Virus record (IMG/VR): IMGVR_UViG_3300037246_000572
Coordinates: 1 to 32,112 of that record
Reading direction: 5' to 3' (one strand)
Origin: a virus
Length of the DNA stretch: 32,112 nucleotides
Notes under the pieces: model-generated
The model's database searches: none
Told to the model about the DNA's origin: nothing
Seen by the model: the letters and a program-made list of their open reading frames with translations, nothing else
Shown here: piece by piece, positions 10,436 through 30,796 of the stretch
Layout: each line of letters opens with the position of its first letter
Numbering within the stretch: the stretch's first letter is position 1
Program-made: the position numbers and the translations under genes

Positions 10436-10741
10436 CTACTCACCACCACCCCACCTCATCATCTTGTACAAAGCTATCAAACCAGTAGGCACTATGCTAC
10501 CACACTTCACGCAGGGTATCTCCCAGCTATTGTTACCGAGGTCGTCGGTGCTCCAGTTCTCCTCATACCTATGAGAGTAGGCCCCCCAGGGTTCATCACC
10601 GCAGTAGTGGCTGATCCATAGAGGTATCGCCACCGATTCAGGGAGGCTTCGCCTCAACACCCACTCACCTTCCTCTATCAGGGTAGTGAAGGCTGTTCCC
10701 TCACCTGCCCAGCCTGCTTCCTTAAGGTCAGGTTCCTTCAT
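10436..10741 (-). CDS. CxxC/amphipathic-helix family protein, paralogue A
   Basis: 101 residues. The middle has 'EEGEWVLRRSLPE' and 'WISHYCGDEPWG'. The C-terminus is CVKCGSIVPTGLIALYKMM followed by RW. The C-x2-C, proline and hydrophobic helix pattern recurs in seven other proteins of this window. The upstream H-x-C plus the CxxC could make one zinc site. No function is known to me. Its ATG at 10741 overlaps the DUF2061-like stop. It lies between that gene and the polymerase. Confidence 0.75.
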   Translation of the reverse strand: MKEPDLKEAGWAGEGTAFTTLIEEGEWVLRRSLPESVAIPLWISHYCGDEPWGAYSHRYEENWSTDDLGNNSWEIPCVKCGSIVPTGLIALYKMMRWGGGE

Positions 10742-11003
10742 CAGATCTCCCGGCCACTAGGCCCCGTTGAAACTCCGAGCGTCCACCCTGGTGAGCCTCT
10801 TCCTTTCCGAACATGACCTTCAGGCTCCAGAATCTATCATGGTAGTAGAAGATGAGTACCCCCAGCACCAAGTCAATGAGTGCCAAGGCACTACCAAACT
10901 GCCATGAACCAGTCAGACCGAAGCCAACCGCGAAGTGTACGAGTAGCATGATGCTCTTGTAGCTCAGCGTCTTAGCACAGGCTCTACGAGGTAGGCTTGA
11001 CAT
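10728..11003 (-). CDS. DUF2061-like two-pass membrane protein
   Basis: 91 residues. 'KTLSYKSIMLLVHFAVGFGLTGSWQFGSALALIDLVLGVLIFYYHDRFW' has the features of the DUF2061 family: KT.SY at the N-terminus, two hydrophobic helices, and a closing YYHxRxW. The family is a small membrane domain of unknown function, common in bacteria and sometimes in phages. Start at 11003, overlapping the previous stop as TAATG, with GGGGTG nine bases upstream. The C-terminal 25 residues are a charged extension. Confidence 0.72.
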   Translation of the reverse strand: MSSLPRRACAKTLSYKSIMLLVHFAVGFGLTGSWQFGSALALIDLVLGVLIFYYHDRFWSLKVMFGKEEAHQGGRSEFQRGLVAGRSDEGT

Positions 11004-11089
11004 TAGCATGCACCCCATCTAAGTATGTTGTATGCTGTGACTATGAGCCCAATAACTGCACCCAAGATTGCACCCTCTACCCACTGCAT
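11003..11089 (-). CDS. 28-residue membrane micro-protein
   Basis: MQWVEGAILGAVIGLIVTAY(NILRWGAC) is a single glycine-rich hydrophobic span ending in a basic, Cys-terminal tail. A GGAGG ribosome site lies five bases upstream. The start overlaps the upstream stop (TGATG) and the stop overlaps the DUF2061-like start (TAATG). The strong ribosome site argues for real translation. It may form a complex with the two adjacent membrane proteins; this is inference from gene order. Confidence 0.65.
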   Translation of the reverse strand: MQWVEGAILGAVIGLIVTAYNILRWGAC

Positions 11090-11253
11090 CAGATCCTCCG
11101 ATCCTTCTTTAGTGCGTCCTGTTCCTTGTGATATTCATATACTTCTCTGAATGTGTAGCCGAACTTGTATACCTGAACGAGATAACCCGCTCCTCTCAGT
11201 AGCAAGCCCGGTCCAAAGATGACGCCTAGTACCCCAAGAATAATCCACCACAT
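11089..11253 (-). CDS. 54-residue membrane protein
   Basis: MWWIILGVLGVIFGPGLLLR gives one membrane span, followed by an aromatic and charged tail (VQVYKFGYTFREVYEYHKEQ). GGGGG lies five bases before the ATG. The start overlaps the upstream stop as TAATG and the stop overlaps the 28-residue ORF as TGATG. Part of a run of four membrane genes between 10728 and 11723. No family recognised. Confidence 0.7.
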   Translation of the reverse strand: MWWIILGVLGVIFGPGLLLRGAGYLVQVYKFGYTFREVYEYHKEQDALKKDRRI

Positions 11254-11723
11254 TAGATCCCCCTATCAGGAAGGATGTCCCTCTTCGCCACGATGAAGGG
11301 CCCTTCACCAAACCCATACTGCTCATCGAAGTGAGCCAGTACGTATCCCTCTACAGCCTGAGTGATGACGATGGTGTAGTAGAACCCCATCGTTGCACAC
11401 AGATGGTTCTCATAGAGTAACTCAGCGGCGATGGCATCTTCTTCATTCATCTTAGCCCCACCTCTCTCGTAGGTGTCAAGCTCATTCACCAACCGCTGCC
11501 ACGTATTGAGCAGCTGGATGGAGGTGTCGTGGAGGTCAGGTGAGAAGCATATCTCAGCCCCATCCACGATGACACCTGTGTCTATCGAGAAGGGCTTGTA
11601 CTCCTGGCCCTCTGCCTGATACTGTACCAGTGCCAGCAGTGCTATCACAACGATAGCAAGCAGGCACCATGCCTCAGGTGAAACCCTAGGCTTCCGATGT
11701 TCCTTCAGTCTACTTCCGTTCAT
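11253..11723 (-). CDS. Membrane-anchored protein, N-terminal span
   Basis: 156 residues. A basic N-terminus (GSRLKEHRKPR) precedes a span at about residues 18-34 (WCLLAIVVIALLALVQY), then a long soluble domain with two Cys (AEICFSPD, NHLCATMG) and helices. By the positive-inside rule the domain is likely periplasmic, where the Cys could pair. Start at 11723 with GGAGAAAG upstream; 11801 would lie inside another gene. No family recognised. Regulation of an envelope function by the phage is possible but unsupported. Confidence 0.7.
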   Translation of the reverse strand: MNGSRLKEHRKPRVSPEAWCLLAIVVIALLALVQYQAEGQEYKPFSIDTGVIVDGAEICFSPDLHDTSIQLLNTWQRLVNELDTYERGGAKMNEEDAIAAELLYENHLCATMGFYYTIVITQAVEGYVLAHFDEQYGFGEGPFIVAKRDILPDRGI

Positions 11724-11859
11724 ACTCTTTCTCCTTCTCATCAATGTAGTGTTCACAGTTCTCACATGGTATGTGATTACAGCCGTCGCTTGTTGGATCA
11801 CCAGGGCATTCCTTCTTCCCCGGCCAGAAGTGTCGCCCGCATTGGCAGCAGATGGTCAT
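11710..11859 (-). CDS. 49-residue Cys-rich zinc-binding protein
   Basis: MTICCQCGRHFWPGKKECPG continues with 'CNHIPCENCEHY' and a charged helical tail. Eight Cys/His-type ligands in a short span (CCQC, C, C, CxxC, H) suggest two zinc sites or a treble clef. The start overlaps the upstream TAA as TAATG, and the 3' end overlaps the next gene by 14 bases. No family recognised; a role in nucleic-acid or protein binding is a guess. Confidence 0.65.
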   Translation of the reverse strand: MTICCQCGRHFWPGKKECPGDPTSDGCNHIPCENCEHYIDEKEKEYERK

Positions 11860-12164
11860 TACCCACACCAACAGTTGCGGTACTGTGGTTTATGAGGGCA
11901 CCCTGTACCTCGGCTGGTCTTTCTAACCGGAGGTGGGCGTGTGCTACCTTGCCCTACCGCTGTGGCAAGCATGTTGCTCGCGAGTTGTGCCGCCTTATCT
12001 GCATGCCACCGAGGATCACCCTCGCACCCACACTTGGGTGCCTTGCAGTTGAACATCCACTCACTAGGGGTGGGGCGGTACATCACCTGCTCCCGCTCTA
12101 GCTCCTCCACCCTATCCTTTAACATCCGGATCTCTTCCTTCAGTTCCTCGGTGCCTTGACTCAT
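11859..12164 (-). CDS. Coiled-coil plus Cys-rich protein
   Basis: 101 residues. Residues 4-28 (GTEELKEEIRMLKDRVEELE) form a strongly heptad-patterned helix, suggesting a dimer. The C-terminal half has 'CKAPKCGC' and ends 'CPHKPQYRNCWCG', likely metal-binding. GGAG lies five bases before the ATG, which overlaps the primase stop as ATGA. The coiled coil followed by Cys clusters could make a dimeric zinc protein acting with primase, but no homologue is recognised. Confidence 0.7.
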   Translation of the reverse strand: MSQGTEELKEEIRMLKDRVEELEREQVMYRPTPSEWMFNCKAPKCGCEGDPRWHADKAAQLASNMLATAVGQGSTRPPPVRKTSRGTGCPHKPQYRNCWCG

Positions 12165-13003
12165 ACCATCTCCTCTATCACGGCCAGCTCTAGGTCATCT
12201 GGCTGGCCTGTCAATGTAATCACCTTACAGTCTATGCCAAGGGCACGCAGCTTCTTCACGGCCTTCTCCGAAGCTAGCCCAGTACCACTGTCCCACAGGA
12301 AGGTCACCTTCTTGATCTTGCTGTGTAGAATCTTGTCGATGTGCGTGTCGCTAAGGTGTGATCCGAATGTCGCAGTGCAGTGGAGGTGACGCAACCACAT
12401 GGAAACAAACGTGTTCTCCACTAGTACTAGGTCAGGCCACAGCCTGCATTCTTCCCAGCCAAGGAAGTAGTTAGTAATAGGGTGGCCTGAAGCATACCGA
12501 TACGGCTTCGGCCCAGCCTTGAACCAATCCTCCGGTGCCTTATCCTTAGCCACCCGCCTTGAGTTGTACTGCACTAGCTCACCGCTCTCGTAGACAGGTA
12601 CATACAGTCGCTTGTCGTCTTGATGTATCCGGAACTGCTGGATGCGATCCCATGTCACACCTCGTACAGCCAGCGCCTCCACCGCTAGGTCGAGGTACTC
12701 GATCTGCTTGGCATCCTTGGGCAGGGCCACCGGCTTAGCCAGCACGGTGTCGATGTTGTCCAAGGCAGGCACGTACCCAGCTAGCTCAGGTGGGTAGCCC
12801 ACCGAATCAATAAGCCTGTCAAGGGGCCACACCTCACGGCACGTAGCCCTATGACAGAAGCCCACCTGCTTAGCCACGTTGAAGTAGCAGCTCGGGTGGT
12901 CACACTCAGGGCAATCAAACTGTAGCTCGTTGCCATTCTTCTTGTTGATGGCAAAGGCACCCAGCAACCACTGAGTTATGTCAGCCTTGCTGTACTCAGC
13001 CAT
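12161..13003 (-). CDS. DNA primase (zinc finger plus TOPRIM)
   Basis: 280 residues. The N-terminal zinc-binding domain has CPECDHPSCYFN and 'GFCHRATC' (about residues 31-55), as in DnaG/T7-type primases that read the template. A TOPRIM-like domain follows: 'LVLVENTFVSMWL' (conserved Glu), 'VTFLWDSGTG' (acidic strand-loop, usually DxD) and 'TLTGQPDDLE'. It should make RNA primers for lagging-strand synthesis with the helicase at 15333-16736. It is short for the family and appears to lack a helicase domain. AGGGAT precedes the ATG. The TOPRIM DxD is DSG, so the exact metal ligands are uncertain. Confidence 0.85.
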   Translation of the reverse strand: MAEYSKADITQWLLGAFAINKKNGNELQFDCPECDHPSCYFNVAKQVGFCHRATCREVWPLDRLIDSVGYPPELAGYVPALDNIDTVLAKPVALPKDAKQIEYLDLAVEALAVRGVTWDRIQQFRIHQDDKRLYVPVYESGELVQYNSRRVAKDKAPEDWFKAGPKPYRYASGHPITNYFLGWEECRLWPDLVLVENTFVSMWLRHLHCTATFGSHLSDTHIDKILHSKIKKVTFLWDSGTGLASEKAVKKLRALGIDCKVITLTGQPDDLELAVIEEMV

Positions 13004-13070
13004 GTGCTATCCCTATGATTGCCAGCCACATCAACACGTACACCACCGCTGTGATAGCTAAGGTAATCAT
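12996..13070 (-). CDS. 24-residue membrane micro-protein upstream of primase
   Basis: MITLAITAVVYVLMWLAIIG (then IAHG) is one uninterrupted hydrophobic span. Its ATG overlaps the upstream stop (ATGA) and its TGA lies inside the first codons of the primase. There is no strong ribosome site, so translation would rely on coupling. It is the same length and arrangement as the micro-ORF before sbcD. Confidence 0.5.
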   Translation of the reverse strand: MITLAITAVVYVLMWLAIIGIAHG

Positions 13071-13255
13071 TCCGATGTCTCGTCTAGCTCTTTGATCAGT
13101 TCGTCAGCCCTCTGTACTGCGAACTTGATACTCATAGGACTGAGGGGCTTACCAAACTCATACCGCATGCTAGTAGCAAACTTCAGCGCCGCCTCGAATC
13201 GCTGCTGCTTGTCTTGGAAGAACTCAGTCACCTCAAATGTCAAGTCACTACCCAT
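13067..13255 (-). CDS. Hypothetical 62-residue helical protein
   Basis: MGSDLTFEVTEFFQDKQQRF continues through two predicted helices ('AALKFATSMRYEF' and 'SIKFAVQRADELIKELDE'). GGGGG lies eight bases before the ATG, which overlaps the upstream TAA as TAATG. No motif or family recognised. It is highly charged and soluble. Confidence 0.65.
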   Translation of the reverse strand: MGSDLTFEVTEFFQDKQQRFEAALKFATSMRYEFGKPLSPMSIKFAVQRADELIKELDETSE

Positions 13256-13407
13256 TATCTAGGCCCCCATCCACCAATCCAGGGGTTGCCCTTCATGCTC
13301 GCAGCTACCTTGTCGCAGCCCTTGCACAACCCGGATTCATTTACCTTCAGCACAGCACCACATGAGGGTACCATACAGATCCGCTTAACCTTTGCCTGAT
13401 TTCGCAT
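13255..13407 (-). CDS. 50-residue four-Cys zinc protein
   Basis: MRNQAKVKRICMVPSCGAVL, then 'GLCKGCDKVAASMKGNPWIGG'. The C-x4-C and C-x2-C pairs are spaced about 14 residues apart, as in zinc ribbons, after a basic start that could touch nucleic acid. GGAG lies six bases before the ATG. The frame overlaps the FmdB-like gene by 23 bases and stops at TAATG. Family not recognised. Confidence 0.65.
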   Translation of the reverse strand: MRNQAKVKRICMVPSCGAVLKVNESGLCKGCDKVAASMKGNPWIGGWGPR

Positions 13408-13606
13408 AGCCATCTCCTGACCAGCCACCACCCTTCAGGGAGAAGCTGCTCTTACATAGTTGTCTCTTGCATGGGGAGCAGCACTGTACATCGTTGCCAT
13501 CTTGGTCAACTCCCATCTTAGTACACTCAGTCAACGGCTCAGCCGTGATCCTCTGCTGTACCACTGTCTCATGGTTCGACTCGCATAGGTACTCGTAGTA
13601 CGGCAT
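13385..13606 (-). CDS. FmdB-like zinc-ribbon protein
   Basis: 73 residues. The start MPYYEYLCES, an internal 'CCSPCKRQLCKSSFSLKGGGW' region and the closing GYAKSG follow the FmdB family (usually MPxYEY.C..C...CP.CG...F.L.GGGW...Y). The second Cys of the first pair is replaced by SNHE, with extra Cys around the second pair, so the metal site is modified. These proteins are annotated as putative regulators without proven function. ATG 13606 chosen because the family begins MPxYEY; a GTG at 13615 has GGGAGG upstream. Confidence 0.78.
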   Translation of the reverse strand: MPYYEYLCESNHETVVQQRITAEPLTECTKMGVDQDGNDVQCCSPCKRQLCKSSFSLKGGGWSGDGYAKSGKG

Positions 13607-13616
13607 GATGTCCACC

Positions 13617-13934
13617 TTACCTCCCTATCCTATCAGCCACGAGCTTCGCCGTTTCTTCATCAACGAGAGGGCTGAGGTCTAGCTCACCATAGTGCTCATT
13701 GAAGTACGTACTGTGGGCTATGATGACATCAGATTTGTTAGGAGCACAGTCCACGCATACCCATGTCTTGTAGGCTAGAGAGGGGTACCCTGCGTGACCA
13801 CTCAAGTATCTCTTGTAGTACCACATGGGCTCACCCTTCACATCATCGGCACACTCATCACACCTACGATAGAACCACTTAGGTGTACGCATACGGATCA
13901 ACTTGATGACTCTGTTCAGCTTGTCTCGCCTCAT
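13617..13934 (-). CDS. Zinc-finger protein with two CxxC pairs
   Basis: 105 residues. A basic N-terminus (RRDKLNRVIKLIRMR) is followed by YRRCDECADDVKG and, about 30 residues later, TWVCVDCAPNKSD, making one four-Cys site around an aromatic core (MWYYKRYLSG). The pattern resembles treble-clef or DksA-like small zinc proteins but has no diagnostic features. The ATG overlaps the upstream stop as ATGA. It may bind RNA polymerase or nucleic acid; this is speculation. Confidence 0.72.
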   Translation of the reverse strand: MRRDKLNRVIKLIRMRTPKWFYRRCDECADDVKGEPMWYYKRYLSGHAGYPSLAYKTWVCVDCAPNKSDVIIAHSTYFNEHYGELDLSPLVDEETAKLVADRIGR

Positions 13935-14179
13935 CCTAGTCTGTCCACTGCATCATGATAAGTCTCCCTCAGGTAGTCAGGCTCAACCTCTCTGTCATCC
14001 TGAACATACATCTTATCCAGAGGGTCCAGCTCCATGCCCTTGTACGCACACTGTATGTCTCCTGGGTACTTTGCGTTGTGCTTCTGTGCGAACACACGCC
14101 ACTCAAGCATGAGGCTAGCTCTCTCCTCAAGCCAAGGCTCTGTCTTTCTTAGTGCCCATTCCTTGAATCTCCACCACAT
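13931..14179 (-). CDS. Hypothetical 82-residue protein
   Basis: MWWRFKEWALRKTEPWLEER is a Trp-rich amphipathic start, possibly membrane-surface binding, followed by a charged helical region ending 'YLRETYHDAVDRLG'. Start at 14179 because the preceding stop overlaps it as TGATG and GGAGG lies seven bases upstream; two earlier in-frame starts fall within that ribosome-site region. Family not recognised. Confidence 0.68.
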   Translation of the reverse strand: MWWRFKEWALRKTEPWLEERASLMLEWRVFAQKHNAKYPGDIQCAYKGMELDPLDKMYVQDDREVEPDYLRETYHDAVDRLG

Positions 14180-14316
14180 CACCATACCTCCTCAAGGGCT
14201 AGGAATATGCCGTGGACTACAGCCGCTAGCCCTACGAAAGCTGCTACAGTAAAGAAGCTACCTCCCGCTGAGCCAAGCAACCCAGCCCCACCATAGATCA
14301 TTATGTATTTCTTCAT
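14179..14316 (-). CDS. 45-residue membrane protein
   Basis: MKKYIMIYGGAGLLGSAGGS continues 'FFTVAAFVGLAAVVHGIFLALEEVW', giving one long or two short hydrophobic spans with a Lys-rich start. A weak GGGATAG precedes the ATG. The stop overlaps the next start as TGATG. No family recognised. Confidence 0.6.
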   Translation of the reverse strand: MKKYIMIYGGAGLLGSAGGSFFTVAAFVGLAAVVHGIFLALEEVW

Positions 14317-14318
14317 CT

Positions 14319-14756
14319 CTATCCCATCCTGTAAAAGTCATGCATCATTTTGATCTCACCCGACACCTGCTCACCACATAGGCCGCAGGTATCCTCATCT
14401 GCTAGCTCAACCTGTACGTACCCATCCTCCCACCAATCTTCAATCCTCCCGAACTCCGGGTGCCTATGGGTGATGTAGTCAGCGTTGATCCGCCACTGTC
14501 CTATATGAACAGCGTTCTCATCTTCCATAATCAATATGTCTGAGCCATTCAGGATACATAGGGCACCGAGGTGCTCGTCTGCCGCTATGATCGTGTCATC
14601 ATCCTTCCGCTGCATGGTCTTCACCACCTCATCATAGTACGCCCTGGCTGAGGTGTAGGGTTTCCCGTACCATGTCACCGTGTTCTCGCCTATCGAATCG
14701 TCGTGCTCGTAGGTAATCATATTCTTCCTGATAGTCATGGTTGTTTCTTCAGTCAT
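14319..14756 (-). CDS. CxxC-helix protein, divergent paralogue B
   Basis: 145 residues from ATG 14756 (MTEETTMTIRKN), which has AGAGG four bases upstream. Residues about 60-120 hold 'DEHLGALCILNGSDILIMEDE' and 'GQWRINADYITHRHPEFGRIEDWW'. The end is CGLCGEQVSGEIKMMHDFY followed by RMG. The CxxC and C-terminal helix match the seven shorter paralogues, although the proline is replaced by serine. An upstream ATG at 14852, with GGGAGGG about 10 bases before it, would add 32 residues and cannot be excluded. Function unknown. Confidence 0.68.
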   Translation of the reverse strand: MTEETTMTIRKNMITYEHDDSIGENTVTWYGKPYTSARAYYDEVVKTMQRKDDDTIIAADEHLGALCILNGSDILIMEDENAVHIGQWRINADYITHRHPEFGRIEDWWEDGYVQVELADEDTCGLCGEQVSGEIKMMHDFYRMG

Positions 14757-14824
14757 GGTTCCTCTCAACTTCTTGTCAGGGTTGGTCATCATCCCCAGCC
14801 TGAGTAGTGTGTGCTTCTTCATAC

Positions 14825-14928
14825 AGATAGCTGGTATCCCTATTGCCTTCATGCAGAAGGCCCTCCCAAGGCGCTAACCGCATACCAAGGGAGGGCCTCA
14901 CTGTGTGCCCTGAAGTTAGATAGCTGGT
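14825..14928. repeat. 11-base direct repeat
   Basis: AGATAGCTGGT occurs at 14825-14835 and again at 14918-14928, 93 bases apart, flanking the hairpin and pseudoknot region upstream of the CxxC paralogue B gene. The second copy overlaps one arm of a predicted long-range helix. Confidence 0.6.
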
Positions 14929-15106
14929 TAGCTTGCCGCCAATACATCAGCCCCTCAGGGGATTTTATACTGGAGTCATGTACCAAGGTACAATTATTTC
15001 TATTCCCAGTATAAGGTAATCTAAAGATAGATTCATAATCATAATGAATGTTCTCATTGTAGTTCATGATCTTTATTATCTTCATCTTATTGTTCTCTTT
15101 ATTCAC
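14849..15106 (-). CDS. Doubtful ORF over the structured AT-rich region
   Basis: A GTG-started frame of 85 codons runs across the inverted-repeat region and stops in an ATGA overlap with the ATG at 14852. The first third is Asn/Lys/Ile-rich (MKIIKIMNYNENIHYDYE), reflecting AT-rich DNA unlike neighbouring genes; the last third is ordinary. There is no good ribosome site for the GTG or for an internal ATG at 15085. It may be a leader ORF whose translation would melt the hairpins, or a chance frame. Family not recognised. Confidence 0.3.
   Translation of the reverse strand: MNKENNKMKIIKIMNYNENIHYDYESIFRLPYTGNRNNCTLVHDSSIKSPEGLMYWRQANQLSNFRAHSEALPWYAVSALGGPSA
14858..15049 (-). other. Structured leader: nested hairpins and possible pseudoknot (candidate cis-RNA or origin)
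   Basis: Inverted repeats seen directly: ATTCAT/ATGAAT 15031-15049; AATCTA/TAGATT 15018-15033; TTATACTGG/CCAGTATAA 14965-14973 with 15006-15014, enclosing TGTACC/GGTACA 14979-14992; CCCC/GGGG 14951-14961; AGGCCCTCCC/GGGAGGGCCT 14858-14867 with 14889-14898; GGCGCTAACC 14870-14879 with 14926-14937 (two-base bulge). The last two pairings interleave, so they form a pseudoknot or two exclusive states. One of them hides the GGGAGG preceding ATG 14852. The section from about 14985 to 15120 is AT-rich. A translational switch or a replication origin downstream of P2 are both plausible inferences. Confidence 0.5.
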
Positions 15107-15120
15107 CTTGTATTTTGAAC

Positions 15121-15234
15121 CTATAGGCTCATGATGTCGAGCTGACGTTTCTTTATGACACCAGACGTAAGAGTGCGTCCGGTCTCAAGGGGTAACTGAG
15201 CCTCTAGCTTTCCTTCCCCTGGTGTGAATACCAT
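15121..15234 (-). CDS. 37-residue leader protein after promoter P2
   Basis: MVFTPGEGKLEAQLPLETGR then 'TLTSGVIKKRQLDIMSL'. It has one of the best ribosome sites in the window (AAGGAGG, five bases before the ATG) and is the first frame after P2, about 60 bases from the predicted transcript start. Codon use matches the phage genes. No family recognised. A small CTTCA/TGAAG stem lies immediately before the ribosome site. Confidence 0.6.
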   Translation of the reverse strand: MVFTPGEGKLEAQLPLETGRTLTSGVIKKRQLDIMSL

Positions 15235-15302
15235 GGGCTCCTCCTTCAGTTGAAGTGTATTTCAGGGGGGCTCCCTCTTAGAGTCTCCCTTCTCTCTATT
15301 CT

Positions 15303-15331
15303 ATTATAGCTTTTTCTGAAAACGATTGCAA
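15303..15331 (-). promoter_or_regulatory. Promoter P2 (sigma70-like)
   Basis: TTGCAA (15326-15331), a 17-base spacer and TATAAT (15303-15308) on the minus strand. It begins two bases after the stop of the replicative helicase gene, and its 35-base core (15299-15333) is identical to P1. It would drive the leader ORF, the structured region and the genes through primase and polymerase. Predicted transcript start near 15296. Confidence 0.88.
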
Positions 15332-15332
15332 C

Positions 15333-16736: not shown

Positions 16737-16822
16737 GCTTCCTCCTTGTACCTCAGCCTCTTGGCCATCTTGGTACTGTTTCTTGGTTGCTACTTCGAGC
16801 GGATGTAGAACTTATGTGTAGT

Positions 16823-17125
16823 CTACAGCTTCTCAAGAAAGGCTACCATACGTAGCCCTTCAGGTACTACCTCCTTGCAGTAGTTACATACGTACCCCCT
16901 ACAATCATTATCCTTCCGCATGTTTGTACTATTCTCACTGTGCTCACTGTGCTTATACTTCTCATAGCATAGGTGATTAAAGGTACCACACGGCCAGCTA
17001 TCATTACCTTGGATTGGATAACCCCAGTCACCTATCCTACTCCAGTACGTACTACGATCATACTCGTAATGCATCCTACTATGCCATTTCACATACTCAG
17101 TCGTCATTGCCTCTTCACTCAGCAT
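16823..17125 (-). CDS. CxxC/amphipathic-helix family protein, paralogue C
   Basis: 100 residues with many aromatic, His and Tyr residues ('RMHYEYDRSTYWSRIGDWGY', 'PCGTFNHLCYEKYKH'). It ends CNYCKEVVPEGLRMVAFLE then KL, the family signature of C-x2-C, x4, Pro and hydrophobic helix. The upstream HxxC could complete a zinc site. The ATG overlaps the ligase stop as TGATG. It lies between ligase and replicative helicase, followed by an 86-base gap holding nothing convincing. Confidence 0.72.
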   Translation of the reverse strand: MLSEEAMTTEYVKWHSRMHYEYDRSTYWSRIGDWGYPIQGNDSWPCGTFNHLCYEKYKHSEHSENSTNMRKDNDCRGYVCNYCKEVVPEGLRMVAFLEKL

Positions 17126-17997
17126 CACATATCATCCTTGTGCCTGAAGCCTTGGAAGCTAGGGAAGCGAGGCTTACCCTTGCCACCATGAGGCTGGTGC
17201 TTGTACTTGATGAGGTCACCAACATGCACCTGCCTATTGCGCCAGTAATCCTTGCGTTGCTTGGCGCTGAACCCTGTACCTACCTCAAACTCAACGCCTG
17301 TCTTGAGGTCACGTACCTTCCACTTACCCAGCACACCAGCCGGTACCTTCCCTGCCTTGGCAGTTGATCGTTCCGATTCACCCAAGGCATTCTTTACCTT
17401 CGGGTTGTTGTTGGTCATCTGTTCTTCAAAGCCAATGATCTCAGCCTCATCATCCTGAAACATCTTGTACTTCATAAGCCCTTGCTCAGCGCCGGTGGAG
17501 CGGCCATACTTATAGTAACTGCCCGCTTGCCTCGCCATCACACCCTCGTACCCACCACTGGCACACTTGTCCCAGTACTTGATGAACCCTTCCGAGTCAT
17601 ACACTATGACAGGCTTGAGGAACTTGAGCCACGGTGGGTGAGGCTTGGGTAGGTTGTCAAGAGCCTCGACCCTCAAGCTGTACGATTGCTCGGTCATGTT
17701 GTGTATGTCGAACACGAGGTACTCAAAGTCAGGCTCACCATCCTTACGCATCACTGCGCTGGATACATCACCGAAAGCCTTAGCCCCCGGTATCCATAGC
17801 TCACCGTCCAGCCCCTCCACCCCGTACTTCTCCAGCTCTGCTTGGATATGCAGGTTGGGTATAGGCTTGAGGCTTCGGCTCTTGGGTGCGCCCCCCGTAA
17901 AGGTGAGGCACCGGATACCATCCACCTTGGGTGTACATAGTACCGGGTAGTCCAGTGCATCAGTATCTTTCAGTGTTGCTGCTAGCATGGGTTTCAT
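17125..17997 (-). CDS. ATP-dependent DNA ligase (T7-like)
   Basis: 290 residues with nucleotidyltransferase motifs in order: motif I TPKVDGIR (Lys about 24, the adenylated residue), 'KSRSLKPIPN', motif III GLDGELW (about 62-68), 'FEYLVFDIHN', motif IV GYEGVMAR, and motif V QGLMKYKMF. An OB-fold region follows (GKWKVRDLKTGVEFEVGTG). It is a compact two-domain ligase, smaller than T4 ligase (487) and near T7 ligase (359). It should seal Okazaki nicks. Start at 17997, overlapping the upstream stop as ATGA with GGAAGGAA seven bases upstream; an ATG at 18030 is less likely. Confidence 0.93.
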   Translation of the reverse strand: MKPMLAATLKDTDALDYPVLCTPKVDGIRCLTFTGGAPKSRSLKPIPNLHIQAELEKYGVEGLDGELWIPGAKAFGDVSSAVMRKDGEPDFEYLVFDIHNMTEQSYSLRVEALDNLPKPHPPWLKFLKPVIVYDSEGFIKYWDKCASGGYEGVMARQAGSYYKYGRSTGAEQGLMKYKMFQDDEAEIIGFEEQMTNNNPKVKNALGESERSTAKAGKVPAGVLGKWKVRDLKTGVEFEVGTGFSAKQRKDYWRNRQVHVGDLIKYKHQPHGGKGKPRFPSFQGFRHKDDM

Positions 17998-18266
17998 GTC
18001 ATGTTTCCTTCCATATGGAATAGGTGCCACATTGCTTGGAGTGACTCGGGCATCTCCAGATCACCACAGTACAGACAGTACTGATCCCTTACCTCATTTC
18101 TAAGCAGGCAGTCGTATGACCCTCGTGTCATTTTATTATTTGCTCTAGCCTCCTCACGTTTAGGGCAGAGGTGGTAGGCAAACATCCTACCTGTAGAGGG
18201 GAACACCTCCAACCAGAAGCTACCCTCCGTATACTTATTTGCTCCATGCTCCTGTTCAAACTTCAT
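17994..18266 (-). CDS. CxxC/amphipathic-helix family protein, paralogue D
   Basis: 90 residues. 'SFWLEVFPSTGRMFAYHLCPKRE' supplies the strand and HxC element, and CLYCGDLEMPESLQAMWHLF is the family ending. Start at 18266 (MKFEQEHGANK) with AGAGG five bases upstream; an earlier ATG at 18395 would overlap paralogue E by 140 bases. D and E are adjacent and overlap by 11 bases, which points to a tandem duplication. Function unknown. Confidence 0.75.
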   Translation of the reverse strand: MKFEQEHGANKYTEGSFWLEVFPSTGRMFAYHLCPKREEARANNKMTRGSYDCLLRNEVRDQYCLYCGDLEMPESLQAMWHLFHMEGNMT

Positions 18267-18552
18267 TAGAACCTCTCCTCTGGTCGTTGCATAGTAGATG
18301 CCACAGCGCCCAGATCTCATTAGGTATAGATTCAGTACAACGGATACATATCTGGCGGGGATCTTCTCCATTCTGTTGCCTCGATTCACCGCCATTGCAC
18401 CGATGTATCATCATCGCATTGTATAGGCCTTCAGCCGCCTCCTTTCTTCTTACGAGATACCATGTACCTATATTTAGTACCGTTACCCTGTAGTGGCTAT
18501 CGGGACGATAGATCTCAGGGGGATTAGGGGGATTAGGGAGATCACCCATCAT
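18256..18552 (-). CDS. CxxC/amphipathic-helix family protein, paralogue E
   Basis: 98 residues. A Pro-rich start (GDLPNPPNPPEIYRP) precedes 'GTWYLVRRKEAAEGLYNAMMIHRCNGG' and the ending CIRCTESIPNEIWALWHLL, followed by CN. Its 'W.l.RR' strand, HxC and CxxC-Pro-helix are shared with paralogues A, F, G and H. The ATG overlaps the upstream stop as ATGA; the next ATG three bases on is also possible. Function unknown. Confidence 0.72.
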   Translation of the reverse strand: MMGDLPNPPNPPEIYRPDSHYRVTVLNIGTWYLVRRKEAAEGLYNAMMIHRCNGGESRQQNGEDPRQICIRCTESIPNEIWALWHLLCNDQRRGSNEV

Positions 18553-19244: not shown

Positions 19245-20707
19245 GGTTTCTCCTCAATAGTAAATCCTTCTGCCTTCCAGTACTTCTTCCTCGCTGCTGA
19301 GTGGCGCTTCAATGTCTTACCACTGTTGTCCTTGAAGTCAATCACCAACACCTCATGCTTGCCCTTGGCCTTACGTAGACCACGGCCTATCCTCTGTAGT
19401 GATGCCACCTGTGACTTACCTCCCCCTGCTAGAATGAGGGTGCGGAGGTTAGGGAGATCAACCCCATCATCATAGATGGTCGTTGCAATTATAGCTTTTT
19501 CTGCGCCGGATTGCAAGTCGGCCAGCACCTTGTCCCTATCCTTCAGCTTGGTGCTACCCTGCTGAATGGCCGGAAGAACAATCCCCTTTGCTTCCGCCAT
19601 GTTATGGAGGACTTTTGCATGTCCTAATCTATTTGTCATCACGAACGCAGGCTTTGGGCAGCTAACCAACAGCTCGATGATCTTATTATTCCTTGTATCA
19701 TTACCCATCACGCTGTGCTCATAGCAATCGGGCCATACCGTAGGCCCACCAGTAGCCTTCATCTCGTAGATGACCACCCTTGGAGGGGTGAGGTGCCCCG
19801 CATCAATGAGTTGCTTGTTGCTGATAGAGCATAGCTGATTGCCAGTGACACCCACCAACAGCTGGTTGCTGTACTCATCCTTCATAAAAGGTGTGGCTGT
19901 GAGTCCCCAGCGATAGTATGCACAGCGGAACTGCCGAGCCATCATCACGAACTGATTACCCTTGGCTATCTTACTAGCACACAGGTGGGACTCATCGAAG
20001 AAGATCTGCTGGGCTGCTATGAACTGGTTGATCTTAGATCCATCCGCCTCCTTGATCCTGTTGTGTAGTGTCTGAATCGTAGCCACACTGATACCACTAG
20101 GGTCAGGGTCGAACACGCTGTCACCTATCTGCCCTGCTGTCACCCCATACTTGGCGAAGCGCTTGATAGCCTGAGACATGAGGTGCTTCCGATGCACCAC
20201 GAACACAGTGGGCACAGGGTTAGCTTGGTACATGGCAACAGCCAGCTCTGTCTTACCACCACCAGTAGCAATCTTTAGCACACCACACGGCCAGTCATAC
20301 GACGTACCACCAAGGGTGACCTTGTTGGACATAGCGGCATCGTATGCCTCAGCTTGGTAGTCCCTCAGCTGCACAGTGTACGCCCCTATCTTACCCTTGG
20401 GCACCATACGTAGGTCATCCAACTCAATAGGGTTGCTCATCTTATTCATCAGCTTGGCATGAACATAGGGTAGCAGCCCTGTAGGGAAGAAAGAGCTATG
20501 GTTGCCTGGATGTGGCTTGCTCAGCACGCTGGTCAGTCCATCCCATCCACTAGCCCCCTTGGTACGGAGCCATAGCTTATGTGACTTCATGTACCTAGCG
20601 CCAGGAGCCAGGGTCTTGACCTCATCCCTCACCTGACTATAGACCTCCAGCTCACCCTCATTGTCGGGCTTGACTAGAGCTACGGTGTTGTCGAACTCAA
20701 TCTTCAT
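19241..20707 (-). CDS. UvsW-like SF2 DNA helicase
   Basis: 488 residues. A short N-terminal domain is followed by the SF2 motor: 'VQLRDYQAEAYDAA' (Q-like motif), Walker A IATGGGKTE (about 147-153), 'VFVVHRKHL' (Ia), DESH (about 238, motif II), LTATP (about 270, motif III), 'AIIATTIYDDGVDLP' (motif V) and QRIGRGLRK (motif VI). This matches T4 UvsW and related helicases that process branched DNA, R-loops and stalled forks. Start at 20707 (MKIEFDN) with GGGGTG upstream. Codons in motif V carry a complete sigma70-like promoter (P3). Confidence 0.92.
   Translation of the reverse strand: MKIEFDNTVALVKPDNEGELEVYSQVRDEVKTLAPGARYMKSHKLWLRTKGASGWDGLTSVLSKPHPGNHSSFFPTGLLPYVHAKLMNKMSNPIELDDLRMVPKGKIGAYTVQLRDYQAEAYDAAMSNKVTLGGTSYDWPCGVLKIATGGGKTELAVAMYQANPVPTVFVVHRKHLMSQAIKRFAKYGVTAGQIGDSVFDPDPSGISVATIQTLHNRIKEADGSKINQFIAAQQIFFDESHLCASKIAKGNQFVMMARQFRCAYYRWGLTATPFMKDEYSNQLLVGVTGNQLCSISNKQLIDAGHLTPPRVVIYEMKATGGPTVWPDCYEHSVMGNDTRNNKIIELLVSCPKPAFVMTNRLGHAKVLHNMAEAKGIVLPAIQQGSTKLKDRDKVLADLQSGAEKAIIATTIYDDGVDLPNLRTLILAGGGKSQVASLQRIGRGLRKAKGKHEVLVIDFKDNSGKTLKRHSAARKKYWKAEGFTIEEKP
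19488..19516 (-). promoter_or_regulatory. Promoter P3, inside the UvsW-like gene
   Basis: TTGCAA (19511-19516), a 17-base spacer and TATAAT (19488-19493) on the minus strand, with CAGAAAAAGC before the -10 exactly as in P1 and P2. Only six spacer bases differ. It lies in frame within codons for DLQSGAEKAII. It would initiate near 19481 and transcribe the GP88-like, CxxC, ligase and helicase genes. Confidence 0.72.
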
Positions 20708-21029
20708 GTTTGTCACCCCATGCAATCAGCTTCAAGAACCCTTGGATATAGTCCGGTGCCTCTTCGCTACACCTACGGCACCAGAGGTGAGGTTCCAACG
20801 TGACCTCGGTGGTGGAGCTGAAGACTAAGCCTTCCATAGCACTGGGAACCTGATGACAGGGGCTTAGCCCTACCCCTTCATGGTAGTGGTACGTGTTGTA
20901 CCAGATCAGCTTCTTATCCATACCATACAGATCGTACGACCTCTCGTTGCGTACTACATGCCACCCATCCTTAGCTATCACATCGTTCGGGTGATTCTCT
21001 CTGAACTTTTTGTTTCCCATACGACTCAC
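20697..21029 (-). CDS. CxxC/amphipathic-helix family protein, paralogue F
   Basis: 110 residues. 'KDGWHVVRNERSYDLYGMDK' and 'SPCHQVPSAMEG' precede the ending CRRCSEEAPDYIQGFLKLI then AWGDKHED. It closely resembles its upstream neighbour G (CATCDVYAPDWVKGAMKLI), so the two are probably a tandem duplication. A GTG at 21029 overlaps the upstream stop as GTGA with GGAG six bases before it; an ATG at 21020 is the alternative. Function unknown. Confidence 0.72.
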   Translation of the reverse strand: MSRMGNKKFRENHPNDVIAKDGWHVVRNERSYDLYGMDKKLIWYNTYHYHEGVGLSPCHQVPSAMEGLVFSSTTEVTLEPHLWCRRCSEEAPDYIQGFLKLIAWGDKHED

Positions 21030-21322
21030 GCCTCACTCCATTGGATTAGCTTCATGGCTCCCTTCACCCAGTCAGGGGCATACACATCACAGGTAGCACA
21101 CGTACCGCTGTGATCGTTGTGCCCTACACCTACACTGAAGCCACTCGGGTGACGATGGTGCAAGACATACCAAGGATCACAAGGGTGACGACCACCATTT
21201 CGGTAGCTTATAGTACGCCGCTCCACCCACCACCCTTCACCTATCTCCATATTTTGTACTACACCCCACCCATAGTCACACTTAGGGTAGATAGGTTCAG
21301 TACTCTTGTCAAATAGGGGCAT
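21026..21322 (-). CDS. CxxC/amphipathic-helix family protein, paralogue G
   Basis: 98 residues. 'GEGWWVERRTISYRNGGRHP' and 'CDPWYVLHHRHPSGFSVG' precede CATCDVYAPDWVKGAMKLI then QWSEA. The 'GWxVxR' strand and C-terminal signature are shared with F. High His, Trp and Tyr content. The ATG overlaps the upstream stop (TGATG) and GGAG lies eight bases before it. Function unknown. Confidence 0.75.
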   Translation of the reverse strand: MPLFDKSTEPIYPKCDYGWGVVQNMEIGEGWWVERRTISYRNGGRHPCDPWYVLHHRHPSGFSVGVGHNDHSGTCATCDVYAPDWVKGAMKLIQWSEA

Positions 21323-21732
21323 CACGCCTTCTCCAGCTTGGCCTCAACAGCAGCCATCTCTTTATGCAGCCTCTCTTTGGTACGGTTCAGCTTGGCCTTG
21401 GCGATGCGCTTCTTCTCTGACTCCTTGTACGCCGTGATCTCATCCACCGAGGTAGCCTGCCAGATCTTGTAGGCTCTCATCTCCTCCTTGTACTGCGCCA
21501 TCTCCTGCATGTACTGAGTGTGTGGCTTCCCCGCTGCTTCCAGTTGTATCTCATACTCATGGGGATCAAACTCAATGCTTATGTGCTCCAGCAGAAGGTG
21601 AGTGTTTTCCTTCATAAACCTCTCAAGCTCTTGGTTGAAGTCGGTCATCGACATACAGTTCCACAAGGCATGGGTCAGCTGCCCATCCTGGCTTGGTTTC
21701 TTTGGTCGTGTCATCCATACAAAACTACTCAT
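21322..21732 (-). CDS. Hypothetical coiled-coil protein
   Basis: 136 residues. The C-terminal half is a long charged helix ('EEMRAYKIWQATSVDEITAY' through 'KERLHKEMAAVEAKLEKA') likely to form a coiled coil. The N-terminal half is mixed, with Trp and Met. AGAGGG lies seven bases before the ATG, which overlaps the HNH-like stop. No family recognised; an oligomeric scaffold or DNA-binding accessory are both possible. Confidence 0.7.
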   Translation of the reverse strand: MSSFVWMTRPKKPSQDGQLTHALWNCMSMTDFNQELERFMKENTHLLLEHISIEFDPHEYEIQLEAAGKPHTQYMQEMAQYKEEMRAYKIWQATSVDEITAYKESEKKRIAKAKLNRTKERLHKEMAAVEAKLEKA

Positions 21733-25679: not shown

Positions 25680-25919
25680 CTACTTACCTCCTACAAGTAT
25701 GACCTTATCCTCTGGCCCATGCTCAGCACCACACGCACGGCATACCAGTACGTTTTCATCTTCCTTCTTCTTATCCGTAGGGTTGAACCACTTGGTTGCC
25801 TCTACCTGTGTACCCTTGGGCTTGTTCACCTTGTCTTTGTCGGTCATACCTCCGCAGAAGTGAGTGATGTTATCGTCCATTGAGAACCAGTCACTATTAC
25901 TAACCACCGTAGCTGTCAT
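25680..25919 (-). CDS. Small protein with a C-terminal CxxC
   Basis: 79 residues. MTATVVSNSDWFSMDDNITH includes 'HFCGGMTDKDK', and the end has VLVCRACGAEHGPED, a zinc-knuckle type CxxC. With the upstream His/Cys it could form one metal site. Start at 25919, five bases after GGGAG; an ATG at 25931 overlaps the upstream stop as TAATG and is possible. Not clearly part of the CxxC-helix family, since no C-terminal helix follows. Confidence 0.68.
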   Translation of the reverse strand: MTATVVSNSDWFSMDDNITHFCGGMTDKDKVNKPKGTQVEATKWFNPTDKKKEDENVLVCRACGAEHGPEDKVILVGGK

Positions 25920-25930
25920 GTCAACTCCCA

Positions 25931-27166
25931 TTACTTAGTCAGCTTCACCTTCACCTTCGTACCCCAAGGCACCTGATGATTCTCGTACCCTTCAGGGTGA
26001 GCCCACAGTACAGGGTACGGAGGCTTATCTTCGGGGAATGATGTCTCAAGGTCAGTGAAGGCGATGACCATACCGATTCTCTCTTGTGTCTCGTTGATCT
26101 TCTCAAAGACATCAATGTGTGAGGTGCCACCCCGTGTGGCCTTGATCTTCTTGATGGTGTTCAGGTCATACTCCTCTATATGGTAGCAGTTTACATCATG
26201 GAAGAATATCTTGAGCCACTTGCACCCTGTCTCACGCAGGATACCCGAACACTCAGACACAAACTGTGACAGGTTATCGTCACTGATAGACCCGGAGGTA
26301 TCAATCGCTATGATCGCACCGTTGGGGCTACGTGTCCGAGAGGGCAGCTGCATACTACTGGATGAACTAGAGAGCATGGCACGAGCCCTTCTATTAGGAC
26401 GAGGATACCCGTACCTACCCCGGAACATGGACGTTGCCACCCTTCTCAGGTGTTCCTTCCATGTCACGCTGGGCTTGCGTATCTCAGCCATGAACTCATC
26501 AGCAAACGCAGGCGACTTGCCTCGTTTCTGTGCGTTCATAGCGGCTGCGATCACATGCTGCTTCCATTTTTCTACTGTCTCAGCGTTGGGTTCCTCACCG
26601 TGCAGCGCACCCGATGTGCAACCACGCTCACCTACCTGACTACCCGGCTCAACCTTAGGGCCTTCGCCTCCCTCACCTACATCGTGAGGACAGCCACCAA
26701 ATTGCTCCACCTCATCAGGGTTCTGGATCAGATGATAGTAGATCTGCTCCGTTGTCTTACCTCTATGCTGCTCCATCAACTCATCGGTGATGTTCTTCTT
26801 ACTCACCGCTGATTGCTTGAGCCCAGCATCTACGAGGATGCTATCCACCTTGATGTCAGCAGCTATGTTCCATACCTGATGGTTCCCACCTTGAGGGAAC
26901 CGTACAGTACACCGCTGAACAAGGTGCATCACCTCATGTGCAAGCTCGAACATCGTTTCTTGCACACTGGTGAATCCATTGACCCAATCAGGGTTGTAGT
27001 ACATATTACCCTTGTGATCCACGCAGGTAGTACCAACCCCTGCTGTCTTAGACTCATGGAATACCATCCTCATCACCAGCTCCCCGAAGAAGGGGAAGGC
27101 CATGAGTAGCTGCATCCTAGCCTTAGTCAGCTTCTCTCTCGGATCTCCTGTGTCTATGCTCTTCAT
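25931..27166 (-). CDS. Metallopeptidase/VWA protein (DUF2201-like), MoxR partner
   Basis: 411 residues. The N-terminal domain has FELAHEVMHLVQ, an HExxH zinc-peptidase motif (77-81). A variable Gly/Glu-rich linker follows, then a VWA-like domain with IDTSGSIS, a MIDAS DxSxS motif (289-293), and 'MVIAFTDLE' supplying the distal Asp. This matches the DUF2201 putative metallopeptidase plus VWA-like pair encoded next to MoxR ATPases. The partner ATPase is directly upstream, two bases away. Roles proposed for such pairs are chaperone-like or metal-insertion activities; none is proven for phages. Start 27166 has GAGG six bases upstream. Confidence 0.85.
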   Translation of the reverse strand: MKSIDTGDPREKLTKARMQLLMAFPFFGELVMRMVFHESKTAGVGTTCVDHKGNMYYNPDWVNGFTSVQETMFELAHEVMHLVQRCTVRFPQGGNHQVWNIAADIKVDSILVDAGLKQSAVSKKNITDELMEQHRGKTTEQIYYHLIQNPDEVEQFGGCPHDVGEGGEGPKVEPGSQVGERGCTSGALHGEEPNAETVEKWKQHVIAAAMNAQKRGKSPAFADEFMAEIRKPSVTWKEHLRRVATSMFRGRYGYPRPNRRARAMLSSSSSSMQLPSRTRSPNGAIIAIDTSGSISDDNLSQFVSECSGILRETGCKWLKIFFHDVNCYHIEEYDLNTIKKIKATRGGTSHIDVFEKINETQERIGMVIAFTDLETSFPEDKPPYPVLWAHPEGYENHQVPWGTKVKVKLTK

Positions 27167-27167
27167 C

Positions 27168-28307
27168 TTAAGCCTCGTTGTTGGCAAGGTACGTTCCGTA
27201 CCGGGTGTACATCTCCTTGAAGTAAGGGTTCTGTGCTGCCTTCACCCGGCCCTTCTCATCCAGCTTGCTGAGTGCGATGATGGTTGCCATCTTAGCGATG
27301 AGCAATCCAAACTCTGCCTCCAGCTCGGGACGAAGCACATACTGTAGTGCCTTGTCCCAGAGGTGCCAGTTTTCCTCCTTGTTGATGTGATACTCAAGCG
27401 CCGTGATCGTAGCGTAGAGTACGTCCACCTCTGTCTTGTCCGGGATACGTGCAGTATCCGGGTTCTTGCAGATGTCCTTGGGATCTACCAAGGTGGTGGT
27501 GTTCTGTGCAAAGGTACTGAACTCGATACCGATACCAGAACCAACGCACCCTACTGCACACGGGTACAGCCAGTCACCATCCACCTTACCATCCGGCTGG
27601 ATCTTGAACATGGACTTGCTAAGCATCTCCCATGTTCTCGGTGTAGCAAACGCCTTCTCGCTGGCGTTCAGCTTCACCACCTCATCAAAGCGATTCAACG
27701 AGGTGGCCTGCCTACGGATGTAGGCATTGATGAGAGGGTGAATGTTACCCTTGTCCATGCCCCATTTCAACCACGCATCCACATCACACTTGGCATAGTA
27801 GTGATGCATCCTGTTAGCCAGAGCCATCGGCATCTCAAAGGCACCCGACTTGTCCTCTACCCTGTTGCCTGCTGCCACGATGAACACATCATCACGGAGC
27901 TGGAGGTTCCCAACCTTCTTCTCACCACACACCTTGAAGCAGGCAGCTTGTGTCTGCTCGTGTCCAGTGGGAAGGTCATCAAAGAAGATGACCATCGGGC
28001 GCTGCTCATCCTTCGGGCACTCATAGCTGGCATGGTAAGCCCAGATGGGGGCAAGGATCTGCGTAGCTACCGCCACATCCTTGTACTTGTACTCAAATGG
28101 TACACCACTGATGTCAGTGGGCTCCGAGCACCCAGCCAAGACCAACACAATCTCATGGTCTTTACCGAACGCTTCCTTGGTTGCCTCTGTCTTGCCAATA
28201 CCGGGCGTACCCCAGACCATCGAGGCAAACTCAGGGCCGAGCTTGCGGATCATCTGAAGGATCTCAGTCACGCTCTGTTGGCAGATCTCTTGTCCTGTAT
28301 CAGACAT
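27168..28307 (-). CDS. MoxR-type AAA+ ATPase
   Basis: 379 residues. Walker A is GTPGIGKT (33-40), Walker B MVIFFDD (105-111), and the sensor-1 region is 'VFIVAAGNR'. 'SEPTDISGVPF' after Walker A corresponds to the 'DLxG' element of MoxR proteins, and 'MPMALANRMHHYY' to the arginine-finger region. MoxR ATPases work with VWA-domain partners as remodelling chaperones; the partner is the next gene. GGAG lies eight bases before the ATG. The C-terminal 150 residues are less conserved and probably contact the substrate or partner. Confidence 0.88.
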   Translation of the reverse strand: MSDTGQEICQQSVTEILQMIRKLGPEFASMVWGTPGIGKTEATKEAFGKDHEIVLVLAGCSEPTDISGVPFEYKYKDVAVATQILAPIWAYHASYECPKDEQRPMVIFFDDLPTGHEQTQAACFKVCGEKKVGNLQLRDDVFIVAAGNRVEDKSGAFEMPMALANRMHHYYAKCDVDAWLKWGMDKGNIHPLINAYIRRQATSLNRFDEVVKLNASEKAFATPRTWEMLSKSMFKIQPDGKVDGDWLYPCAVGCVGSGIGIEFSTFAQNTTTLVDPKDICKNPDTARIPDKTEVDVLYATITALEYHINKEENWHLWDKALQYVLRPELEAEFGLLIAKMATIIALSKLDEKGRVKAAQNPYFKEMYTRYGTYLANNEA

Positions 28308-28309
28308 AC

Positions 28310-28483
28310 TTACTTCTCCTCTGTTGTGGTTGATGATGCCTTACGCTTCCTTGCTTCGATACTCTGGAGCCTTATCAAGGCACTCAGTTGGGGCGATGTA
28401 GCAGGAGGGTCATTATACCTTAGCTTCTCTTTGCCTACCCTCTTTGTATACTGAGGCTTCCTCTGTCTTGTGCCATTACCCAT
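28310..28483 (-). CDS. 57-residue basic protein
   Basis: MGNGTRQRKPQYTKRVGKEK then 'LRYNDPPATSPQLSALIRLQSIEARKRKASSTT'. The N-terminal half is strongly basic and probably disordered; a short helix follows. GGAGG lies six bases before the ATG. It overlaps the DUF932-like stop (TGATG) and ends two bases before the MoxR ATG. It may bind nucleic acid or dock onto the ATPase; both are guesses. Confidence 0.65.
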   Translation of the reverse strand: MGNGTRQRKPQYTKRVGKEKLRYNDPPATSPQLSALIRLQSIEARKRKASSTTTEEK

Positions 28484-29550: not shown

Positions 29551-29552
29551 GG

Positions 29553-29909
29553 TTACTTCCTCACATCTGCGAGCAGGATGTAATGAACCTTCGACCTGAA
29601 GTCATCGCTCATCTCACTCAGTTCCTTCTCACACTCACACTTAGGGTCTGCCTCCTCTCTGATGTACCGTTGGCACGCTGTACTATCATCATTCCACATC
29701 GTCCGACGGCTATGCTCTGCGAAATCATCAGCCGTCATCACCTTGAGGGTAGTATCACTGGTACTGGTGCCCTCAAACACATCGAGTACCCTTAGTATGG
29801 TGCCCGGTTCCATCTTCTCGTTGCCCGTCACCACTGATGGGGCATAGATGAACATGGTCTTGCTGCCGGGCTTGATCTTCTTCACTGGCTGTAGTAGTGT
29901 CAGGTTCAT
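29553..29909 (-). CDS. Hypothetical 118-residue protein
   Basis: MNLTLLQPVKKIKPGSKTMF starts a beta-rich half ('GTILRVLDVFEGTSTSDTTL'), followed by helices and 'ADPKCECEKELSEMSDDFRSK' containing one CxC. It may be a small SH3- or OB-like barrel. The ATG overlaps the upstream stop as ATGA. No family recognised. Confidence 0.7.
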   Translation of the reverse strand: MNLTLLQPVKKIKPGSKTMFIYAPSVVTGNEKMEPGTILRVLDVFEGTSTSDTTLKVMTADDFAEHSRRTMWNDDSTACQRYIREEADPKCECEKELSEMSDDFRSKVHYILLADVRK

Positions 29910-30196
29910 GACGTTGCCTCATACTTGAAGCTATACATCACGACACCAGCAAAGTTCTTCTTCTCCTCGATGACACCCTTGCCCACGTATTCATCCTTGA
30001 TAATAACAAACTCCTTCTCTGACATGCCAGCGCTGGCGATGATGTCATCTTTCTCCACGCTGATGCCTTGCCCACCCTTGATGAAGATAGCTTCCAAGAA
30101 CATACGCCTGTTGAAATACCCATGAGTAATGGGGTTGGGCATCTGCTCTGTCATTATCGCCATCGCCTCTACTACTGCCGGGTTGGTATCACTCAC
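29906..30196 (-). CDS. Hypothetical 96-residue protein, possibly winged-helix
   Basis: A GTG start (GTGA overlap with the upstream stop) has GGAG eight bases upstream. Two predicted helices are followed by 'SEKEFVIIKDEYVGKGVIEE' and a beta-type ending 'AGVVMYSFKYEATS'. The helix-helix-wing order hints at a winged-helix fold, but no diagnostic residues are seen. An in-frame ATG at codon 12 is an alternative start. Function unknown. Confidence 0.65.
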   Translation of the reverse strand: MSDTNPAVVEAMAIMTEQMPNPITHGYFNRRMFLEAIFIKGGQGISVEKDDIIASAGMSEKEFVIIKDEYVGKGVIEEKKNFAGVVMYSFKYEATS

Positions 30197-30444
30197 TGTC
30201 CCAGCTCCAAGGTGTACTGAAACAAGGGTCGAGTGTACGTGTCATTCTTTGCATCCTCCTGCTTGAGCTGCTCAACAATGATCTGATGCCCTTGTTGTGC
30301 TACCTCTTGCTCAGTGCCCTCTCCTTGATGGAAGATGACTCGGTGTTGAGGGACAGGGTGTATCTTCCGACACCTGTCATGCCTCTTGGTCTGGTACACA
30401 CGAAACTTGACCTTGTATTCACTGATCCTTGTGTTGTCTAGCAT
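30193..30444 (-). CDS. Hypothetical 83-residue basic protein
   Basis: MLDNTRISEYKVKFRVYQTK begins a basic beta-rich region ('RHDRCRKIHPVPQHRVIFHQ'), followed by a Gln-rich helix and 'FQYTLELGQ'. GGAG lies six bases before ATG 30444, two bases past the upstream stop. A longer frame to 30561 lies entirely inside paralogue H and is rejected. No family recognised. Confidence 0.68.
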   Translation of the reverse strand: MLDNTRISEYKVKFRVYQTKRHDRCRKIHPVPQHRVIFHQGEGTEQEVAQQGHQIIVEQLKQEDAKNDTYTRPLFQYTLELGQ

Positions 30445-30445
30445 C

Positions 30446-30796
30446 TTACTCTCCTTGCTCAATACCCCAGGCATAGATACGGTACAAAGTTTGCACCTCT
30501 GTCGGGGTTTTCTCACCACATGACGGGCACTGTTCATAGTTTCTATTGACACTATGCACAATGCTTATGTTCACATCGGTGCCAATGACACCGACAATAC
30601 TCATTGATTGATTCCTTGCCTCCTTACCTAAGGATCTACAATCATGGATGATATAAGCAGCGACGGCACCGCCTTCACTGGGAATCATCCTGTTATACAA
30701 CACCCAATCACCATTGGTGTACATGATGCTGCGTGTCTGACCTTCAAACTTACCACCCATCATACCATTAGAGAAGTAATCATTAGGGTCAATCAT
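30446..30796 (-). CDS. CxxC/amphipathic-helix family protein, paralogue H
   Basis: 116 residues. 'YTNGDWVLYNRMIPSEGGAV' and 'YIIHDCRSLG' supply the shared W-strand and HxC element, and CPSCGEKTPTEVQTLYRIY then AWGIEQGE is the family ending. It is about 10 kb from the nearest other member, so the family is dispersed. The ATG overlaps the upstream stop as ATGA with AGAGGAAG upstream. Function unknown. Confidence 0.75.
   Translation of the reverse strand: MIDPNDYFSNGMMGGKFEGQTRSIMYTNGDWVLYNRMIPSEGGAVAAYIIHDCRSLGKEARNQSMSIVGVIGTDVNISIVHSVNRNYEQCPSCGEKTPTEVQTLYRIYAWGIEQGE

Follow-up and report, generated by a model that had tools for sequence, protein, structure and literature searches.

Eight small genes dispersed along the window (the whole stretch of viral DNA analysed here, a record of 32,112 bases) share a common ancestry, as shown by profile comparisons of their predicted products, and belong to one lineage-specific family of phage proteins. 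The window is a fragment and ends before a large tandem block of such genes that is found in its relatives. The eight open reading frames had been singled out in a preliminary description, and all of them are present where it placed them, on the minus strand (Table 1). The C-terminal pattern by which they had been grouped, a C-x2-C followed by a proline and a hydrophobic helix, is seen in all eight, with Ser in place of Pro in the gene at 14319. That they form a single diverged multi-copy family is borne out by a profile built solely from members of other phages, containing no sequence of the window, which recovers eight out of eight (E 2e-14 to 2.2e-6). The next-best frames of the window score 0.005 (25683) and 0.046 (an endonuclease VII-type gene), and the best score in 50 shuffles of its open reading frames is 0.009. 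Pairwise similarity among the eight is weak (about 20–30% alike, the best pairs reaching 27–28% identity), and BLAST recognises few pairs, namely 10436–21026, 10436–30446 and 20697–21026 (E 1e-6 to 1e-7 in an eight-sequence database). For the gene at 17994, the shorter version listed in Table 1 is the more likely one, because the 129 bases that the longer version adds upstream overlap the part of the preceding gene that encodes its domain.

Table 1. Members of the family and the ClpP-type protease gene in the window.
Feature	Position	Strand	E-value	Remarks
Member in slot before DNA polymerase A	10436..10741	(−)	2e-14	40% identical to same-slot member of G003
Member directly downstream of DnaB helicase gene, long N-terminal extension	14319..14852	(−)	8e-8	Slot and subfamily kept in relatives
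Member between DNA ligase and DnaB	16823..17128	(−)	1.6e-6	4-base overlap with ligase gene
Member, 90 aa	17994..18266	(−)	1.2e-9	Likely start 18266 (preliminary description: 17994–18395)
Member after GP88-like gene (PF17338)	18256..18552	(−)	1.9e-13	4-base overlap; used for AlphaFold2 model
Member before helicase gene	20697..21029	(−)	5.8e-12	4-base overlap with adjoining member
Member, first of pair before helicase gene	21026..21325	(−)	2.2e-6	
Member upstream in early strand, near record end	30446..30796	(−)	6.9e-13	
ClpP-type protease	1519..2136	(−)	8e-27 (PF00574)	Same early block; conserved alongside family in relatives

The family core is a domain of about 80 residues that reads, in order, W, H-x-C/H, C-x2-C, Pro and an amphipathic helix. 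The upstream W and HxC, previously noted in several of the eight, prove to be genuine features of the family upon alignment with the relatives' members: the Trp is nearly invariant and the first putative ligand is His in 144/144 members. At the second putative ligand, 120 of 143 members have either Cys (99) or His (21), both cysteines of the C-x2-C are kept in 146/146, and the position after this motif is Pro in 131 and Ser in 11 of the 146. Ligand conservation thus supports the four-ligand zinc site suggested earlier as a probable one, in which H-x-C/H and C-x2-C probably hold one zinc ion between them, and the exchange of Cys and His at the second ligand fits a metal site better than a disulfide; it is from this conservation that we infer the zinc geometry. 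An AlphaFold2 model of one member (18268–18510, with 112 aligned members; mean pLDDT 77.9, pTM 0.68) predicts strands at 8–14, 17–22, 32–38 and 41–45 and a helix at 64–79, where the H-x-C closes the third strand and the C-x2-C precedes the helix. Whether all members adopt the same fold, a check proposed in the preliminary description, could be followed up in part, with this member modelled well and a second model, made from a single sequence, being poor (pLDDT 46.5). Foldseek searches of PDB and BFVD returned no match at E<=0.001, and the best VIA-align structural match had a Z of 3.3; a likeness to the HIT-family fold (Z about 3) was discarded as lying within noise.

No described family in the libraries searched matches these proteins. 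Scans of Pfam, PHROGs, NCBIfam and PADLOC with single members and with 112 members gave no convincing family match, none of the zinc families in Pfam, NCBIfam and PHROGs matched more than 1/112 members at E<=0.1, a profile search of PDB sequences found nothing below E 1.9, and tblastn in cultivated phage and plasmid records, performed with one consensus that may miss distant members, returned chance-level matches only. The family is, as had been proposed, undescribed as far as these libraries and the open-access literature reach, an earlier description being possible. Lar-like restriction alleviation proteins (phrog_6795), which are likewise small phage proteins with a zinc-ribbon look, were considered and rejected, the one match among 112 members being near chance (E=0.0015) and the others being unmatched. 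An HNH or endonuclease VII identity (PF13392, PF02945) was also rejected, since these profiles match other genes in the same phages and not the family. The endonuclease VII-type gene of the window (242–586; PF02945, E 2.7e-19) owes its weak false family match to its C-x2-C motifs. As for the frame at 25680–25931, a small protein that is conserved in single copy, shows W ... HFC ... W ... CxACG and lacks the Pro-helix, it was tried as founder of the family and not accepted (hhalign probability 23%).

Searches with the DNA polymerase gene found 19 related viral contigs. Two of them are about 119.5 kb long, and a further search, with the major head protein encoded by one of the pair, gave 49 viral loci and one contig from a metagenome-assembled genome (MAG). 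All of these records are metagenomic and mostly incomplete, none being rated at least 90% complete. Iterated profiles run over all open frames, with reversed frames as decoys, yielded 118 members in the near relatives at E<=0.01 against 0 decoys, and 147 matches at the same threshold, again against 0 decoys, when seven more distant records were added. One of these 147, the window's own endonuclease VII-type gene (E 0.008), is left out as a false match. The combined set comprises about 148 members in 20 records, with 34 and 30 copies in the two 119-kb contigs (G010 and G019, respectively), 18 in a 49-kb contig, 16 in a 121-kb contig, eight in the window and seven in the MAG contig. In two scans of 2.9 million viral contigs by subfamily, every phage recovered was one of the relatives already collected. 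One record, G022, has the replication genes and no detectable member, which suggests that some phages of the wider lineage can do without the family. The MAG contig, L127 (JAJFLM010000335.1), is 119,592 bases long, was assigned to a Deltaproteobacteria genome and carries the head protein and replication genes of the lineage; as it is phage-sized, the link to a Deltaproteobacteria host comes from binning alone. No member was found in 45 other genomes of this class, and a host search by polA in genome contigs returned nothing. No recognisable major head protein of this type occurs in the cultivated phages of the collection, from which it follows that the lineage is uncultivated; the terminase has one weak match among cultivated phages, and megablast of the central window against them found nothing.

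Judging from the replication genes that it carries, the strand on which the family lies would be the early strand. The order of these genes (clpP, sbcC, sbcD, recA, gp32-like SSB, polA, primase, dnaB, ligase, GP88-like, helicase, HNH, sigma, vWA and MoxR) is constant across near relatives, with differing numbers of family members lying between one gene and the next. This strand carries every copy in G010 (34) and G019 (30), amounting to 34/87 (39%) and 30/80 (38%) of the genes called on it, fractions that are approximate because the open-frame lists, made by a simple caller, include spurious genes. A tandem block of about 5 kb stands at the head of the early strand, with 14 copies in G010, 16 in G019 and 12 in G011, and smaller blocks of about 1.5 kb are found in the MAG contig (7 copies) and in G024 (6 copies). 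No member was detected in 29 smaller contigs picked by their major head protein, which is what a restriction of the family to the early half would predict. An upstream motif apparently shared by the translated leaders was dropped, since on reading it turns out to be the final stretch of the gene in front, translated in a different frame.

Several other features of these genomes deserve mention in their own right. The window encodes a MoxR-type ATPase and vWA-type pair (25931–28307; phrog_1297, phrog_1314) that much of the lineage retains within its replication block. Several dispersed HNH_3 genes of G019, about 40–53% alike (L063:1434–1895, L062:13185–13655 and further copies) and fewer in a close relative, are likely homing endonucleases. 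The structural half of G010 holds a second, smaller tandem family of three adjacent genes that are 33–36% alike (L054:11739–13016), the first of which has no Pfam match. Finally, some genes are each split over two open frames, i.e. the ligase of G010 (59.5–60.2 kb, L056/L057), which is explained by a 20-kb piece boundary, SbcC of G019 (78.7–80.6 kb, L063/L064), behind which there may be such a boundary, and SbcC of G014, which is also split near a cut, at 40,000.

The arrangement of the copies bears on the idea that each of them serves the product of the adjoining phage gene, say as an accessory subunit of DnaB, ligase or polymerase. The genes are packed like those of an operon, their several 4-base overlaps in the window suggest coupled translation, and the slot downstream of dnaB is occupied by one and the same subfamily in most near relatives; the last two points speak for such partnerships. 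However, in relatives with core genes that are 65–80% identical, most slots are empty or occupied by unrelated subtypes, and 14–16 copies stand together in a block devoid of core genes, which makes this explanation improbable. The slot before polA illustrates the point, since it holds three unrelated subtypes across relatives and is empty in several others. The first is shared by the window and G003 (Table 1), the second is found in G001 and G002 and has its best match elsewhere in the tandem blocks of G010 and G019 (39–41%), and the third is found in G005 and G016, with its best match in the block of G011 (31–35%). The two tandem pairs of the window (17994/18256 and 20697/21026), in which the preliminary description saw local duplication, are indeed adjacent but are not simple recent duplicates, the closest sequences to 18256 and 20697 being genes of G001 (44 and 61% identity, respectively), where the paired slots are also present. 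Local duplication is nonetheless supported as one route of family growth.

Copies have been repeatedly gained, lost and relocated. Between G010 and G019 there are 24 ortholog pairs and 16 unpaired copies, and median amino-acid identity is 62% for the family pairs, 76% for other small genes and 84% for large genes, with median omega values of 0.31, 0.24 and 0.14, respectively. The ortholog pairs of the family are under purifying selection, and this, together with the unpaired copies, indicates that the genes are functional and maintained yet often gained or lost. Although the family evolves faster than replication genes and than small genes in general (p=0.0015), no such excess is seen over small genes elsewhere on the early strand (p=0.51, n=11), and the notion that it is unusually fast-evolving was dropped on that account. 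A reading in which the copies are selfish elements or near-neutral by-products of recombination might appeal to their insertion in many slots and to the homing endonuclease genes dispersed in the same region of G019. It is already disfavoured, and we regard it as very unlikely, since the pairs are under purifying selection, the ligands are intact in nearly all of about 146 copies and the family is devoid of a nuclease domain.

Small zinc-stapled domains often bind nucleic acid, and the members could accordingly be DNA- or RNA-binding proteins, each regulating phage or host transcription or mRNA. Besides this general consideration, their genes sit among replication genes, and the copies of a distant relative (contig 263 of G036) are basic, with a median pI of 9.1. 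Against it, most of the copies range from neutral to acidic (median net charge −1, pI below 6.5 in 60%), their median pI of 6.1 (as compared to 8.0 for other small proteins called in G010) means that they are not generally basic, and no nucleic-acid-binding family matches above threshold. Nucleic-acid binding is on balance an unlikely function.

Taken together, the early-strand position, purifying selection, turnover and a charge that is not generally basic make protein-binding accessory factors a better reading than nucleic-acid binders or selfish copies. We therefore propose, while giving the proposal only about an even chance, that these are early proteins each binding a host protein of its own, and that they form a host-takeover or counter-defence toolkit renewed by duplication. 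Zinc would staple a small β-sheet to the C-terminal amphipathic helix, and the stapled core would serve as a scaffold. The copies would be made early in infection, their variable loops and N-termini might let each of them bind and alter a different host protein, and duplication would renew the set. Purifying selection and copy turnover fit this distinct-target reading, without proving it.

In a variant that we consider a long shot, the copies would be interchangeable zinc-stapled adaptors, each handing one host protein to a shared phage machine, for which the phage ClpP is a possible partner. This ClpP is conserved in the phages that hold the family, has its catalytic Ser and His in place across the lineage, and a phage adaptor-like protein of host ClpCP is known, SPO1 gp53 (PMC6873191). 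On the other hand, its catalytic Asp is not clearly aligned, and no member was detected in G022 even though a ClpP-like gene is present there. Were the adaptor reading true, the phage would refresh its set of targets by copying a single small domain and moving the copies elsewhere.

The make-up of the family also has a practical side. Small early gene blocks are known in phages, but their products are as a rule unrelated and must be solved singly. Here, over one third of the genes on the early strand of a 119-kb phage stem from one domain, so that one structure and one screen could address about 30 proteins. Ortholog pairs, unpaired copies and slot exchange can be traced between close relatives.

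The nearest precedent in layout is the host takeover module of Bacillus phage SPO1, which resembles the tandem block described here in being a dense cluster, with 26 early genes whose products act on different host processes (PMC6873191). In the present phages, by contrast, a single zinc-type domain is common to all members of the block, and further copies lie between replication genes. As regards a takeover function, which is putative here, what is seen is the position of the genes on the replication (early) strand. To our knowledge, the genes of the SPO1 module are not one duplicated family. The nearest precedent in evolution is provided by Borg elements, whose multicopy Zn-metalloprotease (de-SAMPylase) families, with a dN/dS of about 0.24, are rapidly diverging zinc proteins, often encoded close together and proposed to counter the host (PMC12660748). 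These proteins, however, have a recognised fold, are predicted to be enzymes and are encoded by archaeal elements of megabase size (PMC12660748). The family described here consists of an ~80-residue domain with no recognised catalytic motif, in 119-kb phages, and has a median omega of 0.31. Large eukaryotic viruses, for their part, have expanded paralogous families, such as CR1 and RL11, in which one domain has given rise by birth-and-death to host-interaction genes. The proteins and hosts are unrelated and the comparison is by analogy only, but these uncultivated phages offer a phage example of birth-and-death evolution that resembles the host-interaction families of eukaryotic viruses.
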